From: Eunapius fragilis
Lineage: Eukaryota; Porifera; Demospongiae; Spongillida; Spongillidae
DNA length: 64,000 bases
Direction: 5' to 3'
Assembly (NCBI GenBank): GCA_963681505.1
Contig: OY811987.1
Location: forward strand, 6,081,245-6,145,244
In this document: piece after piece, positions 4,643 through 63,840 of the stretch
Numbering within the stretch: position 1 is the first letter of the stretch
Layout: the number at the start of each line of letters is the position of its first letter
Made by a program: the position numbers and the translations under genes
Notes under the pieces: model-generated
Databases searched by the model: none
What the model was told of the DNA's origin: nothing
The model's input: only the letters and a program-made list of their open reading frames with translations

Positions 4643-5767
4643 TGTGGTACTTGCATTGTTTCATAAGAACAATTACATACAAGCGTGAAGTTGCTTAAAC
4701 AGCATTCAATCCTTGGATCAATGCACTGTACTATAATTGTCACTATTTCAGTATGTATTTTAATAGTCCAAGAGCCTCAAATCGCCTGCATACAACCCCA
4801 GCATCTCGTTGGTGATCACACCCAGTTGATCCAATGGTGGAATTGTGAGAATACTCAGACCAAAATCCTCTGATCCAGAGCATAGCAGACCACTGAGCCA
4901 GACTGGCCCAGTCCCCTAGCCAAAGTGAGAATCACCATATGTTGTTCATCTGCACAGAGATACTGCTCGAAAAGAAAGGAAAGCCACACCCACACATACA
5001 CCCACAGAATAGCCACACCTACACCCATCCACACCTACACCCACGCAAGAGAATAGCCACACCTACACCCACCCACACCTACACCCACGCAACAGAATAG
5101 CCACACCTACATCCACCCACCAGAATAGCCCAGCTGTCTGCATGTGACTGCTGCATCATTGGAGTCCCTCCCACACACTGTTCCCCATCATTTTTTTTAG
5201 TACACTTCCACTCTACCCTGGCTTGGGGTAGAGACTGGCCCAATCAGATGAACACTTCCACCCTACCCTGGCTGGGGGTAGAGACTGGCCCAATCAGATG
5301 AACATCTCCATTGCTGTATTTTGTGGGGGGGATTGTCAGGAGTATTGTCAGGGGTAAAATTGGGACTGAAAGATAAATATAGTTCTCTAACAATTTGTCA
5401 CTCCACGAGGTAATAGAGTTCCTTTCCCTGTTATTTAGGAAGAAGGAAGTTCAGACCCCCACCCCAGCCCCATTTCCCCTGAAGTACTGACAATACTCAC
5501 GGATGTATGCCCCCTCCCCCCCCCCCCCCCCCCACTCATTATGTGGGAAGTTTGACAACCCCTAGCCCAAGAAACATATAAATTTAAAAGACCCCCCCCC
5601 CCCATCCCCACCCAAAACCTGAATCAGCCATCAAACTAAACAGATATGTGCCATACCACGTATGAACTTGAATAGTTGAAAGTATCAGTTGTCCACATCA
5701 ATGTACATTCAAAACCATCATGCAAATGGTATTGTAAAGCAAACCTATTATTTAACCACAGGGTCCT
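4643..5767. other. Gene-poor spacer between receptor copies
   Basis: No gene recognised. It contains CCACACCTACACCCACgCA-type short tandem units (about 4980-5130), a two-copy ~50-bp direct repeat (about 5205-5302, CTACCCTGGCTNGGGGTAGAG core), a C22-type homopolymer near 5513-5534 and a second poly-C near 5592-5603. Confidence 0.6.
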
Positions 5768-47804: not shown

Positions 47805-50800
47805 GTGTCCACCGCTAACATTCCACCTGGCTATTCTCTACACAACTACCCATGCTACAGACCACGTATGTCCAATACGGCTGTTGTATTGGACGGTGGA
47901 GAGCATCGCATATCGTCAGAAAGGCCCTGCATCATCTCCAGTGGAGGCAACATTACAATATCGGGGTCTTCTACGGAAACCACCACAATTCGCTGCGAAG
48001 AAGGTACCGTGTTTGCATTCATTTCAGCACAAACATTGACCATGGAGGAGAGAATAACCTTCATGAACCGTGGAATCCGCCTTGTATCCATCGAAAATAT
48101 TTTCCTTACTTTTAAGGATAGTTCAAATAGAGCAATTTTTCAGAACGTATAGTAAAAAATCGGTTAGCATCACTAATTGTATAGATTTATTAGCAACAGT
48201 GCCTCTCATGGTGGTGGTGGTGCAGTATTATGCTATAGATCAGTAGGTGGTGTTCTCATCACGAACTGCACATTTGAGAACAATAGTGCTAGTGGTATTG
48301 GTGCTGAGGTGCGACGTTATTGTATGGATCAATAGGTAATGTTATTACAAATTGCACATTTATGGACAACAGAGCCACTCATGGTGGTGATGGTGGTGGT
48401 GGTGTAGTATTATTTTATGAATCAACAGGCAATATTACCATCACAAGCAGCATATTTCTTAACAACAGTGATAATGGTTATCGCCGCGGTGATGGTACGG
48501 TGTTATTGTATGGAACAATAGGTAATGTTAGTTATCGCTAATGCTACTATCCATGACGTATTTCATGGTGATATTTTGGGAGTGGTGCTGTATTATTGTA
48601 TGGATCAATAGGTAATGTTGGTATCACGAGTTGCACATTTCAGAACAACAATGTTTATGCTCATAATTTTTATGGTGGTGGTTGTGCTGGTGCTGTATTA
48701 TTTTATGCAGCAGACGGCAATGTTATCATCAAAAACTGCACATTTCATGCAGTACAATGATGCTAATACTCATGATTTTCGTAGTACTGGTGGTGGTAGT
48801 GGTGGTGCTGTGTTTTTGTATGAATCAACAGGCAATTTTAGCATCACAAACTGCACATTTCAGTACAACAGTGCTACTACTGGTGATTTTTATGGTGGCG
48901 GTGATGGTGGTGAGGTGCATGGTGCTTTATTATTATCATCACAAGCTGCATGTTTCAGAACAACAGTGCTATTGTTGCTAATTATGTTCATACTGGTGGT
49001 AGTGGTGGTGCAGTACTATTGTATGGATCAACAGATGGTATTATAATTACACATTTCTGAAAAACAGGGCTGTGTATGTGGATAATGAGGGAGGTGTCCG
49101 TGGTGCTGGTGGTGGTGGTGTATTATTGTTAAAATCAAGTGCCAATATCATGATCACAAGCTGCACATTTCAAATTAACAGTGCTGCTAACAATATTGGA
49201 GTTGGTGGTGGTGGTGGTGCTGTATTATTGTCCGGAACATCAGGCAATGTTACCATGACAAACTGCACATTTCAAATTAACAGTGCTACTAATTATCATG
49301 GTGGTGGTGGTAGTGGTACTGTATTTGTGTTGGTGCCAATAGGTTATGTCATCATCACAAACTGCACATTTCAGTACAACAGTGTTACTACAGCTGATTA
49401 TGGTGGGAGTGGAGGTGCTGTTTTATTGAATGGATTAACATGGTGTCAGTATCACAAACTGCAGAACAACAATGCTGTTTTCGGAGGTGCTATTTCCATA
49501 GTTTCCATTAATTCCATATTGATTAGTCGCTCTATATTTACTAAAAACACTGCACTTGGTCTTCAATTTCGAGGTAACATCAGGTTCATAAATAATGCAG
49601 AAAAAAAGGAGGGGCCATACGCTTGTCTAACAGTGTCCCACTGTACTTCCATGAAAAATGTGTAGTGGAATTTTCTAGAAATATAGCAACTGGATATGGG
49701 GGCGTTATCTTCAGTAATGGGGACCAACAAAGGCCCATGCAGTCTATGAAAGGTTCTAGTAATGGGTGTGATTGGACATTGTGTTTTATTGGAAAAAAAG
49801 GGAGGTTTTTTCATTGAAAGCCGCTTCTCCATCACCTTTACTAATAATCATGGACAGCAAGGTGGTCATGCTGTATATGCCACACCCATTTATAACTTTA
49901 TAAACTGTTTGGGTATTATGTTGATCCAATGACCATCACTGAAACTCTATACTGTCAAAACATGACTCGCTATTTCAATACTACTCCACTACCAGAAGAC
50001 ATCAAAGACAACCAAATACTCTCATTTCCAAAGTATGTGCACTTGTGTGGCTGCTATGATCATAACTCATGTCGTGTCACAAATCAATATGAAGGAATGG
50101 TTACCACATATCCTGGTAGGACTGTGAGGCTCAATGTTACTACAGTAGATGAAGGAAACTACATGTCACCTGGTGTGGTTTATACACAAATGGTGATACC
50201 TGTCAAAAAATAACACAATACCTCAGCAGAAAGCTCAGTGGGTAGGAACAGTATGTGGTATAGTGGAGTACCAAATATATGGACCAGAAATGGCTTCATT
50301 TAAACTGCTTCTGGCAAGTTATCCCACTAACTTTCCAACATCAATTGAAACAAAGCTGTTACCATGTGAACCAGGATTCACTTTGATATCAAATTCGTCT
50401 ACAGGTGTGATAACATGTGACTGTTCACTGTTCTTCACATTACATGGGGTGATATGGGATGCATCAGATGGTACTGTGACTGTTCACTGTTCTTCACATT
50501 ACATGGGGTGATATGGGATGCATCAGATGGTACTGTGACTGTTCACTGTTGTTCACATTACATGGGGTGATATGGGATGCATCAGATGGTACTGTGACTG
50601 TTCACTGTTCTTCACATTACATGGGGTGATATGGGATGCATCAGATGGTACTGTGACTGTTCACTGTTCTTCACATTACATGGGGATATGGGATGCATCA
50701 GATGGTACTGTGACTGTTCACTGTTCTTCACATTACATGGGGTGATATGGGATGCATCAGATGGTACTGTGACTGTTCACTGTTCTTCACATTACATGGG

Positions 50801-52506
50801 GTGATATGGGATGCATCAGATGGTACTGTGACTGTTCACTGTTCTTCACATTACATGGGGATATGGGATGCATCAGATGGTACTGTGACTGTTCACTGTT
50901 GTTCACATTACATGGGGTGATATGGGATGCATCAGATGGTACTGTGACTGTTCACTGTTCTTCACATTACATGGGGTGATATGGGATGCATCAGATGGTA
51001 CTGTGACTGTTCACTGTTCTTCACATTACATGGGGTGATATGGGATGCATCAGATGGTACTGTGCCTAGTAATAAAACTAACTGGATTGGTATGTACAAT
51101 AGTACTGTTCCAGCAATGGCTTCAACTTGTCCTTTAGCCTACTGAAATAGTGCTATAAATAAGCTGCATCTATCTAGGCCTGGAGACATGTGTAATGGAG
51201 GGCGTAGTGGCATTAATTGTGGCCACTGCCATGGCAACTATAGTGTGATTTTGGTTCTCCCAAGTGTCAGGAGTGCTCAGATATGTGGATGATCACACTA
51301 GTGATGTTTTCAGGATTGGGTGCCTTACTGGTAGCCACACTGTTCTTCCTCAACCTCACCATCACACAGGGCACACACTCTATGGGCTCATCTTCTATGC
51401 CAACATTATCCAAGTCAATACTTCAATATTTTTCAGCCAATCAATTTTGAAACCATTGCAGGTGATAGTGTCATTTGAGAACCTTGACCTTGGGCTTCCT
51501 CTAAGTTTCTATGATGGTATGGATGATGCAGACAAAGCTGGCTTTCAGTTTGTGTTCCCAGCCTACCTCCTCATTCTCACCATGACAGTCATTGTGTTCT
51601 GCCACTACTGCCTTCAACGATCTCCAATCACCTCCACTACATCCTGTTGTAAATAATTGTAGAAAGAGCAGTTGGAGTTCTATCTACTCTCATATTCCAA
51701 ATTGCTTAGAACTGTCAATGATATTCCACAGTCCACTTGCCCTATGGTGATATATTTGTGTGGTTCTATGGAGAGTACCTCCATGGAAAACATGCCATTC
51801 TGTTTGTGGCTGCCATGTTGACATGTACCCTGTTCCTCCTCCCCTACACCTTTGCCCCCACTTTCATTCCAATCATTGAACGGTACAGTGAACACAACAG
51901 ACTGTTCAACTATCTCCACAAGAAGGCCAATCAGATCAAACCAATGAATGATGCCCACTATGCTCCCTATAAAGGGGAGTGGTGATGGTGGCTGGGAGCA
52001 AGGCTCTGGCATGTAGTAGTGATGTACAGTTTAAATCCAGTGTATGGTTCTGACAAGCCATCTCTGTTTCTCACTATCCAGGCTTCTATGGTGATCTTGT
52101 TCACCATATTAGTACAGGCAAGTATAAAACCATTTGGACTGTCAGTTCAAAAAACAGATAATTTCAAATGGTATACCAACTTCTACAATCAGTTGTACAA
52201 TAGCCTTGACATGTTTCACCTCCTCAACTACACTGCACTGGCTATGTCAATGTCTTCCATAATTCTAGACCAGAGTTCAGACCAAACACAAATCACTGTA
52301 GTAACTATTGGTGTTTTGGTGGGTCTGTTTGTAGTGATGTTGATGGTCACTGTCTTGTACCATCTCATTGTGGCCAACCTAAAGACTTGCAATATGTACG
52401 ACAGAGCCAGAGAGAAGATTAATGGATCACTTGGTTCTTTTGAGCTGGATGCCACCGTCAATGCATTAGATGACTATGGTCTGTTGGAACCACGGTGTGA
52501 GGATTA
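47805..52506 (+). pseudogene. Inverted second copy of the beta-helix/polytopic membrane gene, decayed
   Basis: Plus-strand copy arranged head-to-head with 42340-47336. It lacks the signal peptide: similarity begins at VVLDGGEHRISSERPC. The beta-helix section is fragmented into short frames (48320-48541, 48615-49046, 49072-49665). The membrane section survives in pieces (51264-51656 with FYDGMDDADKAG; 51737-51985; 52019-52507, ending with DDYGLLEPRCED and the stop). Stops replace sense codons, for example TGA in GEWQWW. It carries a 59-bp out-of-frame array. At the ectodomain/membrane join it retains ITETLYCQNMTRYF, which shows the ancestral continuous frame missing in the other copy. Confidence 0.88.
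50421..51064. repeat. 59-bp tandem array, 11 units, in the pseudogene
   Basis: The GATGGTACTGTGAC landmark recurs at 50467, 50526, 50585, 50644, 50701, 50760, 50819, 50876, 50935, 50994 and 51053: nine intervals-type spacings of 59 and two of 57 (units lacking TG). In the minus copy the same coding stretch occurs once and is flanked by TGTGACT exactly 59 bp apart, which explains the origin by microhomology. 59 is not divisible by three. Confidence 0.95.
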
Positions 52507-57254: not shown

Positions 57255-60200
57255 ATGGCGCAGATCGTCGACTATTTCGTTGTGTGTGGCATCCAAACTG
57301 ACCGGCCACTGCAAGAAACGAAGAACGGTGAGGAAGGATATACCACAATCACACCTCTCCCTCCTCCCACCCAAAGATCATACCGTACTTCAGGCGCGCC
57401 GAATAGCTTGACACGTGTTCGTTTCTTCTCCCTTCAGCGAGTCATTCTTCACGCATCCCTCCCTTCATGAGGACGTACACACCTCGCGTTCTCGCTCGCT
57501 TTCCGCTCAAGGACCACCATGGAAATACGTTCGACGAGGGAGCCGTATGTGCAGTAAGTTCCCCCCCCCCCCCCCCCCCCTCGCATACCCTCGTGTCATG
57601 CCCGGTCTCCCTCAGCTCTGCGCGCCCGAAGGCGTGCGCTTTGCGAAGAACCTCACCGAGCCGAAGAAGTCGTTCCACTGCTTCCTCATCACGAGGGAGA
57701 ACGCCTCGCGAGCGCACGGAGCCGCCCTCACCTTCTACGAGCGGGTGGGGGACCCGTCGGTGGGGGCCATGCTGGAGGGGATGCAGGCCCCCCGCTCGGG
57801 GGTCCCCGGGTACCAAGGCGAGGAGGAGCATCCCTTCGATAGCTCACGGGACACGCTCTTCGCGACCAAGTGCCTCTGCCTGATAAGTTCCCACCCCATA
57901 GTGAAGCCATTGCAGGCATACCTCGAGCAGCTGTATGCCATTACCGCCGGCGGGAAAGAGGCCCAGCTGCCAGTGGAGAGTTACCTCTTCAACCTCCTGT
58001 ACAAGATCCCCATGCCACGCCCAGGCCACAAGATTGTTATAACGGGACCTCTGGGGAAGATAACGTGGAGAAGCCCTTCTCTGGCTGACCTGCCTCTGTG
58101 TGACTACTCTTTCTCAGAGTTCTTTGAGTTGCTTGGTGTCAAGAACATTCTAAGACTGCTGGCTTGCCTCTTGTTGGAGCATCAGGTCCTGTTGAAGTCA
58201 GCAGGTGATGTTTGTACGCGTGGTGTGTGTGTGTGTGTGTGTGATGTGTGTGGTGTGTGTGTGTGTGTGTGTGTGTACTGTTACAGACCGTGTGTATCAG
58301 TGTGGGCGTGTGTGTTGTGTGTTTGTCTTATGTCTGCAGACTACCAGCGGCTGATGCTGTGTGCTTTCTGCTCCATTTCGCTGCTGTTTCCTTTCAACTG
58401 GCACCACGTCTTTGTTCCCATCCTCCCTGCTGCACAAGTGGGCTTCCTGGATGCCCCAGTTCCCTTCTTGATGGGCCTCCATGTTGATCCCTTAGCTCCA
58501 TCCAGGTCCAGTCTCCTTCAGCTTGAGGTAGTGAGCCCCACCTCTTCTCTGCCCCAGTCCCCATGCTTTTCCCTGTGTATCTCTGATAAGTAGTAATGTT
58601 TTAATAACTGTTGCTTTGAGTTCAATACCTTTGGTTTTCCCAAATTTTCATACCTGCCTTGTCCCTTCACCCTCTCCCTCCCAGTCCCTCCATGTTCTCC
58701 CCAGTCCCTCCTCCCCTTCCCCTCCTCCCCCTACTGCCTTGTCTTAAGTCGCCTCCTCCCCATGCCTTCCCTCTCCTCCCCATGCCTTCCCTCCTAGGCA
58801 TCATTCTGCTGTGTGGACATAGACCGTGGTACGGTGGACTATGGAGACGACCTGTGCACACTGCCTGATCAGGATCGACTCATCACACGCATTGCCACTG
58901 AGCTGAAGAGACATCACATACAGACTCCTGACCTGTGTGAGGTACCTGCCAGTGTTGAGTACAAGTCTTCCGAAGGAATGAATATTCTGGATACTCTTCG
59001 GTAACATTGGTCTGGGGAAGAGGCACCTTACATGACCCTAACCTCCACCCCACATGACCCTAACCTCCACCCCACATGACCTAACCTCCACCCCACATGA
59101 CCTAACCTCCACCTCACATGACCTAACCTCCACCCCTCATGACCTAACCTCCACCTCACATGACCTAACCTCCACCTCACATGACCTAACCTCCACCCCA
59201 CATGACCCTAACCTCCACCCCACATGACCTAACCTCCACCACACATGACCTAACCTCCACCCCACATGACCTAACCTCCACCTCACATGACCTAACCTCC
59301 ACCCCACATGACCCTAACCTCCACCTCACATGACCCTAACCTCTCAAATGACCCTAATCTCCACCTCACATGACCCTAACCTATTATACGGTTATCAGTT
59401 CTCACACCCAAGCCACACCCAAGCCACACCCGTGTCACATCAGCTCCCTTCTCTGAGAATAGTGGGGTGATGACCAGTAGGTAGCTCTGTTAATAATCTA
59501 TCAGGGTGCACTTATGTTGGGCTTTTAAGTTATAGTGACCATGTGGCACACAAGCAGGTTATATGTAGCTACATGTAACTGGGGGTGTGGCTATGTGGGC
59601 CCATTGTTAGCATGTGACCCATCCCACAGGAAGCAGTATCGTATAGGTGTGGAGGGTGTGGAGGTGGGAGACATTATCAGACGGGCACAACTGGAAGTGG
59701 AAAGCCCTACTGGGGAGGGGGTGGAACCTGCTGGGGAGGGGGAGTGGGACTTTGCGCCTAGCTCCATGGAGACGGGCTTCTCTGGTGCCGTGAGACAGGT
59801 GTTTGCCAGCTACTTTGTGGAGCACTTTGCAAACTACGAGAACTTTGTCATAACACCTCAGCAGAATTTTGAGGATTGGCAGAAGAACAGAGACCAGTTC
59901 CAGAACTTTGACAAGTCAGCTTTCCTCTCTGATCAGCCAACATCACACTGGCCTTTCTACTCTGCCTTCCTTGAGTCTACACTGTTCAGCTGCTTCATTG
60001 ATGAGAAGCTTCTGTCCCAGTGGAAAGCAGGGGATACTAACCACGCCCTCACTGTGTTCGATTCCTACATTGAGCGCTACAAAGATAAGAGTGGGCTGTC
60101 CAAACCACCTACAACACCAGGCCCTTTATCTGAAGGTCCTTCTCCCCTTCCCCTCCCTCTCCTTTCCCTCTCCTTCTTCCTCTCCCTCTCCTCTCCCTCT

Positions 60201-63200
60201 CCTCCCTCTCCCTCCTCTTCTCTCTTCTCTCCTCCCTCACCTCTCCCTCTCCCTCTCCTCCCTCCTCTCCCTCTCTTCCCTCTCCCTCTCTTCCCTCTTC
60301 TCCCTCTCCTCTCCATAACTGGAGGTTGTTTGAATTACCTGCAGGAATGCTTGGTGGTGGTGTGTTGGCATTGGAGGTGAGGGACCTTGCTCCCCCTCCT
60401 GTCCTGCTTGAGGGAATGGTGGTTCCCTCCAAGACCCAACATCCTCAAGTGTTTCCCCAGCTGGACCCTGGACTGATGGAGTGTGTAAGTCTTGGGTGTT
60501 CAGTTACATGTAACATGGGCGCAACCAGTTACCATGGTAACAGGCGAAAGATGGCTTCTGTTATGGTTTTGTGTACTTTATCCTTATGGCTTCAGGAAGA
60601 CACCTGGTACATGTATGTCTTCACATGTCTATGTTTTCATTGTGTGTGCTGTTGGTACACGTACGCAGATTGTATTGCAGATTGCTGCTGCATCATTAGC
60701 ATGGAGTCAGTCACGTAGTGACCTTGTGTAGTACCCCAGTTACCCCTGATGACAGGTGATAGTACCCCTGATGACAGAGATGGTAGTGCCCCAGATGACA
60801 GAGGTGGTAGTGCCCCAGATGACTGAGGTGGTAGTGCCCCAGATGACAGAGGTGGTAGTACCCCTGATGACAGAGGTGGTAGTGCCCCAGATGACAGCAG
60901 GGGTAGTTGGTAGTAACTCTGATGACAGAGGTGGTAGTACCCCTGATGACAGCAGAGGTAGTTGGTAGTAACTTTGATGACAGAGGTAGTAGTACCCCTG
61001 AAGACAGGTGGTAGTATAACCCTGATACTCTTCACTCCTCCACACAGACTGAAACTCCTAATTTAGTGGACTTTGTTTCATCTCCCCAAGGAAAGCTACC
61101 CCCTCCATCCATGGGACCCAAACCACTAACTGGCTTCTTCCATAGCCAGGTGAAATTTGTGAATCAGCTGTGGAGAGAGAGCAGGCTGCGAGTGAAGCAC
61201 ATGCTGGGTTCAACTGGGGAGTCTCTGAACTACGTAGAAGAGAACACACACATCGCCTATCTCTGTGAACTGCTGGAAAGGATCTGGGGACATGGCCTCA
61301 AGAAAAGAGAGGTGAGTGGTCATATTGATAGCACCCCCACCTTGATGTGAAGTGAGTGGTCATATTGATAGCACCCCCACCTTGATGTGAGGTGAGTGGT
61401 CATATTGATAGCACCCCCACCTTGATGTGAAGTGAGTGGTCATATTGATAGCACCCCCACCTTGATGTGAGGTGAGTGGTCATATTGATAGCACCCCCAC
61501 CTTGATGTGAAGTGAGTGGTCATATTGATAGCACCCCTTCCACCTTGATGTGAAGTGAGTGGTCATATTGATAGCACCCCCACCTTGATGTGAAGTGAGT
61601 GGTCATATTGATAGCACCCCTCCCACCTTGATGTGAGGTGAGGGGTCATATTGATAGCACCCCCACCTTGATGTGAAGTGAGTGGTCATATTGATAGCAC
61701 CCCTCCCACCTTGATGTGAAGTGAGTGGTCATATTAATAGCACCCCTCCCACCTTGATGTGAGGTGAGTGGTCATATTAATAGCACCCCCACCTTGATGT
61801 GAAGTGAGTGGTCATATTGATAGCACCCCTCCCACCTTGATGTGAGGTGAGGGGTCATATTGATAGCACCCCCACCTTGATGTGAAGTGAGTGGTCATAT
61901 TGATAGCACCCCTCCCACCTTGATGTGAAGTGAGTGGTCATATTAATAGCACCCCTCCCACCTTGATGTGAGGTGAGTGGTCATATTGATAGCACCCCCA
62001 CCTTGATGTGAGGTGAGTGGTCATATTGATAGCACCCCTCCCACCTTGATGTGAAGTGAGTGGTCATATTAATAGCACCCCTCCCACCTTGATGTGAGGT
62101 GAGGGGTCATATTGATAGCACCCCCACCTTGATGTGAGGTGAGTGGTCATATTGATAGCACCCCTCCCACCTTGATGTGAGGTGAGTGGTCATATTAATA
62201 GCACCCCTCCCACCTTGATGTGAAGTGAGTGGTCATATTGATAACACCCCCACCTTGATGTGAAGTGAGTGGTCATATTAATAGCACCCCTCCCACCTTG
62301 ATGTGAGGTGATGGGTCATATTGATAGCACCCCCACCTTGATGTGAGGTGAGTGGTCATATTAATAGCACCCCTCCCACCTTGATGTGAAGTGAGTGGTC
62401 GTATTGGTAGCACCCCTCCCACCTTGATGTGAGGTGAGTGGTCATATTGATAGCACCCCCACCTTGATGTGAAGTGAGTGGTCATATTGATAGCACCCCC
62501 ACCTTGATGTGAAGTGAGTGGTCATATTGATAGCACCCCCACCTTGATGTGAAGTGAGTGGTCATATTGATAGCACCCCTCCCACCTTGATGGGAAGTGA
62601 GTGGTCATATTGATAGCACCCCCACCTTGATGTGAAGTGAGGGGTCATATTGATAGCACCCCTCCCACCTTGATGTGAGGTGATTGGTCATATTGATAGC
62701 ACCCCTCCCACCTTGATGTGAAGTGAGTGGTCATATTGATAGCACCCCTTCCACCTTGATGTGAAGTGAGTGGTCATATTGATAGCACCCCCACCTTGAT
62801 GTGAAGTGAGTGGTCATATTGATAGCACCCCCACCTTGATGTGAAGTGAGGGGTCATATTGATAGCACCCCCACCTTGATGTGAGGTGAGTGGTCATATT
62901 GATAGCACCCCCACCTTGATGTGAGGTGAGTGGTCATATTGATAGCACCCCCACCTTGAGTGGTCATATTGATAGCACCCCCACCTTGATGTGAAGTGAG
63001 GGGTCATATTGATAGCACCCCTCCCACCTTGATGTGAGGTGATTGGTCATATTGATAGCACCCCTCCCACCTTGATGTACGTTCTGATATCTTGTCTCTT
63101 CCTTAATACCTATAGGGGAAGTCCCCTTTGTGGGCTCACCTTATGGCCTATGTTGAGACAAAAGGGGAGGTACCTAAAATGACCACACCCAGCCCCCTCG

Positions 63201-63840
63201 CTACATCACTCATGGCTCTTAACTCCATCGGAGACAAGAGCTCACCAACTTCATTTTTAAAGAAACGCTTCAATCTTCCTCAGCTCAAGTCACAAATTCA
63301 AGCCGTCCTGCAACCACAGCCTCCTGTGTTGATTGATGACCTTAGGTATGGCCTGGGTACCCTGATTGATAACCTTATGTATGGCCTGGGTACCCTGATT
63401 GATGACCTTAGGTATGGCCTGGGTACCCTGATTGATGACCTTAGGTATGGCCTGGGTACCCTGATTGATGACCTTATGTATGGCCTGGGTACACTGATTG
63501 GTGACCTTAGGTATGGCCTGGGTACCCTGATTGATGACCTTAGGTATGGCCTGGGTACCCTGATTGATGACATTAGGTATGGCCTGGGTACTATGGTTAA
63601 TCCAAGGAGGAGGAGTCTGTTGTGCCCAGCTGTTGCCATGGTAACTTCACTGTCCCTGCCTTTGCCATAGGACTGTAGCCAATATGACCGAATTGAAAAC
63701 TGATGTTGGAAGGGCCCGGGCATTTGTCCGTCTTACCCTTGAGAAGAAATGTCTGTCTAGGTACCTCTCAGAGTTGCTAAGCAACAAAGACCTGATCAGG
63801 TGACAGTAACCAGCTTCATCAGAAGTGTTGATATAGCGTG

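Follow-up and report, generated by a model that had tools for sequence, protein, structure and literature searches.

Background

Tandem repeats that run across an exon-intron boundary and thereby copy its AG/GT splicing signals have been described in lancelets, where such "mirages" are found in Adh3, in the globin genes BflGb6 and BflGb9, and in the troponin C gene (PMC3087553, PMC3902484), with similar but imperfect repeats in PGBD5 (PMC3902484). According to the available text of these papers, the repeat units measure 10 to 72 bp in Adh3 and 150 to 160 bp in the globin genes, and RT-PCR results suggest that splicing is undisturbed. The accessible part of PMC3902484 states that no aberrant mRNAs arise from the mirages of Adh and troponin C, and that of PMC3087553 that regular splicing seems undisturbed, but that the copies could serve as cryptic sites.

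Two other systems bear a partial likeness. The human morpheus/NPIP genes carry variable internal tandem repeats with a mean unit of ~30 bp that alter gene structure, and NPIP transcripts differ in unit number; the available portion of the paper, however, places those repeats within an exon and ascribes the variation to structural polymorphism, not to donor choice (PMC2812944). Introns gained when AG/GT proto-splice sites are duplicated in tandem (Rogers; Zhuo et al., as cited in the available text of PMC3087553) likewise involve a doubled splice boundary, whereas the case described below needs no new intron, an existing donor having been multiplied. A further candidate precedent, PMC3039753, concerns, in the part available, a promoter minisatellite and was set aside as not relevant. 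We found no report of such boundary arrays in sponges among the literature matches listed.

Here we describe two arrays that, like the lancelet mirages, are tandem repeats at an exon-intron boundary with the AG/GT signals copied. Their units are 33 bp and 40/43 bp long, and they lie in a DENND5-like gene in the window, the 64-kb stretch of DNA that was analyzed. They differ from the lancelet cases in that the genome is probably a sponge's, that two consecutive introns of one gene are involved, and that one array has an 11-codon unit with an open frame. Copy-number variation and RNA results are on record for the lancelet mirages, as far as the available text of those papers goes, whereas the DENND5 arrays are known from the sequence of one assembly. 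If the genome is indeed that of a sponge, mirages are not a lancelet speciality.

The DENND5-like gene and its conserved exon junction

Matches to the uDENN (PF03456), DENN (PF02141), and RUN (PF02759) profiles, all over the Pfam cut-offs, lie on separate exons between positions 57616 and 63800 of the window: the uDENN and DENN matches fall in the stretches 57616 to 58203 and 58342 to 58527, and the RUN match falls in the exon after the 33-bp array. These exons were treated as one gene, of which the analysis covers the portion inside the window. The arrangement of uDENN and DENN followed by RUN is that of DENND5/Rab6-interacting protein 1, and the best solved relative of the joined exons was Rab6-interacting protein 1 (3cwz_B; E = 6.5e-16), which we take to be mouse DENND5A. 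The DENND5 identity proposed in a first-pass annotation of the sequence is thus upheld. A whole-genome protein search gave four matches among the best candidates scored, all of them exons of this gene.

The exon sequence across the junction 63345/63671, which was supplied in the query, matched ...SLIQDMR/HIQNIGEIKTDVGKARA (LIQDMR/HIQNIGEIKTDVG) of 3cwz_B without a gap. We therefore take the donor at 63346 to be ancestral; LIDDLR, in the exon end, would then be old exon sequence that was copied by the 33-bp repeat.

Table 1. Features of the DENND5-like gene around the two boundary arrays (window coordinates; a slash marks a splice junction).
Feature	Position	Strand	Evidence
Preceding exon; acceptor placed by eye, without a Pfam match of its own	61048..61311	+	Open frame, protein search
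40/43-bp minisatellite, 42 GTGA-type donors	61312..63078	+	TRF, unit listing, donor scoring
DENND5-like exon (GKSPLWAH...), acceptor AG at 63114-63115	63116..63345	+	Open frame; 3cwz_B match when joined with next exon
33-bp minisatellite, 8 units	63330..63593	+	TRF, unit listing, unit comparison
First (conserved) 5' splice site, TAG/GTATGG	63346..63347	+	Gap-free protein junction; donor score
Seven further donors at 33-bp steps; T at -1 in units 2 and 5	63379..63578	+	Unit listing, donor scoring
3' splice site (CTTTGCCATAG/G) common to the eight donors	63669..63670	+	Sequence, frame test
Next exon, RUN profile positions 51-94, donor starting at 63800	63671..63799	+	3cwz_B match, Pfam, donor scoring

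A 33-bp array spans the donor

The array at the conserved junction consists of eight units of the form TGATTGATGACCTTAG/GTATGGCCTGGGTACCC, without indels; TRF returned 63330 to 63591 with a period of 33, 7.9 copies, 95% matches, and 0% indels. Unit 1 opens with the final 16 bp of the exon and continues with the initial 17 bp of the intron, such that the exon-intron boundary lies inside the repeat, and AG/GT signals recur in many units. The first-pass annotation had already recognized an eight-unit repeat that encloses the end of the exon and its donor and had read it as a 5' splice site captured by a minisatellite; both the unit listing and TRF agree, the array spanning the donor at 63346. Its start, however, had been placed at 63333, and we find it at 63330, inside the exon.

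The eight donors begin at 63346, 63379, 63412, 63445, 63478, 63511, 63544, and 63577. GTATGG is kept in every unit; six units read TAG/GTATGG, identical over the 9-mer, and units 2 and 5 read TAT/GTATGG, the six-to-two division given in the first-pass annotation. Paired with the single 3' splice site that they have in common, these donors would define introns of 325, 292, 259, 226, 193, 160, 127, and 94 nt. Since the donors are spaced 33 bp apart, the phase is unchanged, and the frame is open into the next exon from all eight, so that the predicted gain of 11 residues (11 codons) per unit holds on paper: successive donors would add 0, 11, 22 ... 77 residues. A second place similar to this array, C17:733926 (72%), proved to be a 30-bp array in another region.

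A second array starts on the preceding donor

The first-pass annotation omitted a second donor array, which lies in the preceding intron. The preceding exon ends ...AAAAGAGAG, and its donor, GTGAGTGG, starts on the first base of the 40/43-bp minisatellite (Table 1), so that this array, too, contains the boundary and repeats AG/GT in many units. AG/GT is present at 18 of its 42 GTGA-type donors, and 12, the true donor included, share the 9-mer GAG/GTGAGT. The frame is open through the next exon from the first of the 42 donors and from no other, and reading onward from the exon that ends at 61311 meets a stop inside the first unit.

This array is a built-in control for donor choice. Twelve copies are equally strong and the first alone is productive; local strength alone would therefore rarely yield protein, and yet the exons seen of the gene are open and conserved despite the array. 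If the gene works, some preference for the first donor, which we infer, must hold in this intron, and such a first-of-many-equal-donors preference makes it less credible that the later donors in the 33-bp array are used routinely. It is curious that one gene carries boundary arrays in two consecutive introns. A Fisher value based on ten DENND5 introns counted by eye was post hoc and was set aside.

Donor strength and intron size

For comparison, we used myosin genes of the same genome. Of 87 Pfam matches, 61 were taken, in seven loci (60 rows, one match running past its locus); six matches in locus L039, four of them with internal stops, were left out. Neighboring pairs were used when separated by at most 16 model positions, and two pairs gave no junction, which left 36 resolved introns, one of them (3741 nt) resolved poorly.

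The first-pass annotation had proposed splice-site scoring of each unit, and this was done with a donor weight matrix built from 30 of the 36 resolved myosin donors. TAG/GTATGG fell at the 57th percentile of these 30 donors and TAT/GTATGG at the 27th; T at position +4 occurs in 11 of the 30. Five other DENND5-like donors, placed by eye, were scored in the same way: that at 61312 lay at the 83rd percentile and the remaining four no higher than the 30th (0.20, 0.00, 0.30, and 0.03). The possible introns of the 33-bp array (94 to 325 nt) have lengths that also occur among the 36 resolved myosin introns, whose range runs from 50 nt upward. Because six donors are identical in their 9-mer and all eight introns are usable in size, nothing local silences or forbids the later donors. 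When identical donors compete in vitro, the intron-proximal one is often favored, which would point to unit 8.

Does the open frame mean anything?

We simulated random boundary duplications at the 36 myosin introns, taking as reading phase the first phase open upstream, and 6652 of 32904 (20%) were in frame and open; thus, in-frame openness needs no selection. When the first 17 nt of each myosin intron were placed behind the exon end at 63345, 13 of the 36 stayed open.

The units differed by one synonymous change and by D>N, D>G, L>I, and R>M, the last seen twice; relative to the unit consensus, units 2 to 7 show all of these except L>I. Unit 8 has two more changes, at its ragged end. Synonymous outcomes make up 27 of the 99 possible single changes in the unit, and there is therefore no sign that the peptide is protected, in a sample of changes too small to prove neutrality. 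AlphaFold2, run on the single sequence, rendered the repeat as one long helix (residues 70 to 161), but the antisense control also gave a helix (residues 15 to 116), so the prediction is uninformative as to a helix or the protein loop assumed in the first-pass annotation, and the proposal of a helix that grows with every unit was dropped. Three further leads were not taken as evidence: apolipoprotein matches, which were weak (E of 0.025 and worse); a DUF6116 match below its cut-off; and the hydrophobic moment, which was as high in 13% of shuffles.

How the arrays are best explained

We favor the reading, which we think likely, that the two arrays are mirage-type minisatellites that are mostly silent beyond the first donor. 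On this account, a tandem duplication over the exon-intron boundary would have taken 16 bp of exon end and 17 bp of intron start and expanded to the eight units observed, giving eight near-identical donors. By homology, joining the donor at 63346 to 63671 would produce the ancestral protein. In all or most transcripts, the spliceosome would choose the first donor, the one anchored by the exon, presumably because the equal local strength of the copies counts for less than position and a real exon upstream, and the seven downstream copies would remain intronic and mostly silent. Since the frame by chance remains open, some leakage to isoforms longer by multiples of 11 residues could be tolerated. 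The preceding intron would represent a second capture of the same type.

The first-pass annotation had instead seen a length dial. In its full form, the gene would draw on several of the eight donors, its proteins would vary in steps of 11 residues just before a segment of the RUN domain, and alleles of other unit numbers would widen the set. The eight open, in-frame donors, the GTATGG kept in every unit, and the scores of the six identical donors and the two T variants all speak for such a dial. We nevertheless find it unsupported and rate it unlikely, for several reasons. The first junction alone gives the conserved protein without a gap. In the adjoining preceding intron, 41 of the 42 donor copies break the frame, and a position-dependent choice of the first donor must already act there if the gene works. 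Openness of the kind seen arises in a fifth of the simulated duplications, and the peptide is not visibly spared in units 2 to 7. The lancelet precedents, too, are reported without disturbed splicing or aberrant mRNAs in the available text of PMC3902484, although the copies are regarded in PMC3087553 as possible cryptic sites. Likewise, we would give only a small chance to the proposal that all eight in-frame donors are usable and that the number of 11-residue blocks inserted in the RUN domain of this protein, of Rab6-effector type, depends jointly on how many units the DNA holds and on which donor is chosen in the RNA.

Alternatively, the last donor, at 63577, could be constitutive, in which case the repeat would be coding and its 77 residues a lineage-specific insert. 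The frame stays open from one end of the array to the other, the leftover intron of 94 nt would be ordinary (10 of the 36 resolved myosin introns measure 50 to 104 nt), and the exon already has residues that are absent from 3cwz_B. Such an insert would, however, separate by 77 residues two stretches that align to 3cwz_B without a gap, and the peptide shows no visible sparing, which makes this explanation, in our judgment, improbable. An assembly or annotation artefact, with the exon boundary or the array misplaced, is very improbable: assemblies can get the size of a tandem array wrong, but the exon, donor, and acceptor are consistent with 3cwz_B, and the eight 33-bp units carry scattered single-base differences.

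Overall, the 33-bp donor repeat is probably a harmless accident and only possibly a switch of protein length. The adjoining introns carry natural runs of near-identical donors. Every donor choice in the 33-bp array can be read as a protein of different length, whereas in the 40/43-bp array the first choice alone can be read, and both could reveal what picks among equal donors: position, exon definition, or chance.

Boundary arrays elsewhere in the genome

A minisatellite with a period of at least 10 was present in 21 of the 36 resolved myosin introns. Among arrays reaching at most 25 bp into an exon, one began upstream of the donor in none of the 36 and on the donor in a single intron (a GT-rich run). 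Genome-wide, the donor-like octamer AGGTRAGT formed 650 array-spaced triples (360 + 290) and the backward octamer TGARTGGA 1060 (621 + 439), where the counts are of matches, not arrays, and one long array supplies most of the rows listed. Donor-like octamers are thus not enriched in arrays relative to the backward octamer, which argues against a special mechanism.

We also screened 200 kb of contig C1 (2700 N) and the window for arrays with a period of at least 12, at least 2.5 copies, and a repeated AGGT[AG][AT]G. Besides the two DENND5 arrays, this matched a 29-bp array at 107521 to 107831 of the C1 sample, without a clear exon upstream, and an array on the minus strand of the window, at 5004 to 5120. 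Given introns filled with minisatellites, rare boundary cases, and no octamer enrichment, boundary capture seems to arise now and then as a by-product of the genome's wealth of minisatellites.

Several minor observations were made along the way. In the myosin loci L035 to L041, the first array starts 5 to 45 bp after the donor in 14 of the 21 minisatellite-bearing introns. Possible boundary arrays lie at two places in these loci (L037 near 6211 and L041 near 7156), and GT-rich runs start on the donors of myosin exons (CAG/GTGTGTGT...) at about 418 in L037 and about 4177 in L041, offering many GT dinucleotides per splice site. In the window, a 59-bp unit is repeated about 11 times at 50416 to 51064 inside coding-like sequence of another gene, maybe a third boundary array; a stop codon near 51144 suggests that this is a broken copy. 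Contig C24 carries a COX1 whose frame stays open under table 4 (TGA = tryptophan), a code of sponges and cnidarians that is not known from lancelets; together with the COX1 sequence and the type of gene next to it, this fits a sponge. Nuclear COX1-like fragments with several stops lie about 49 kb apart on C9, at 9625139 to 9626160 and 9674219 to 9675257.
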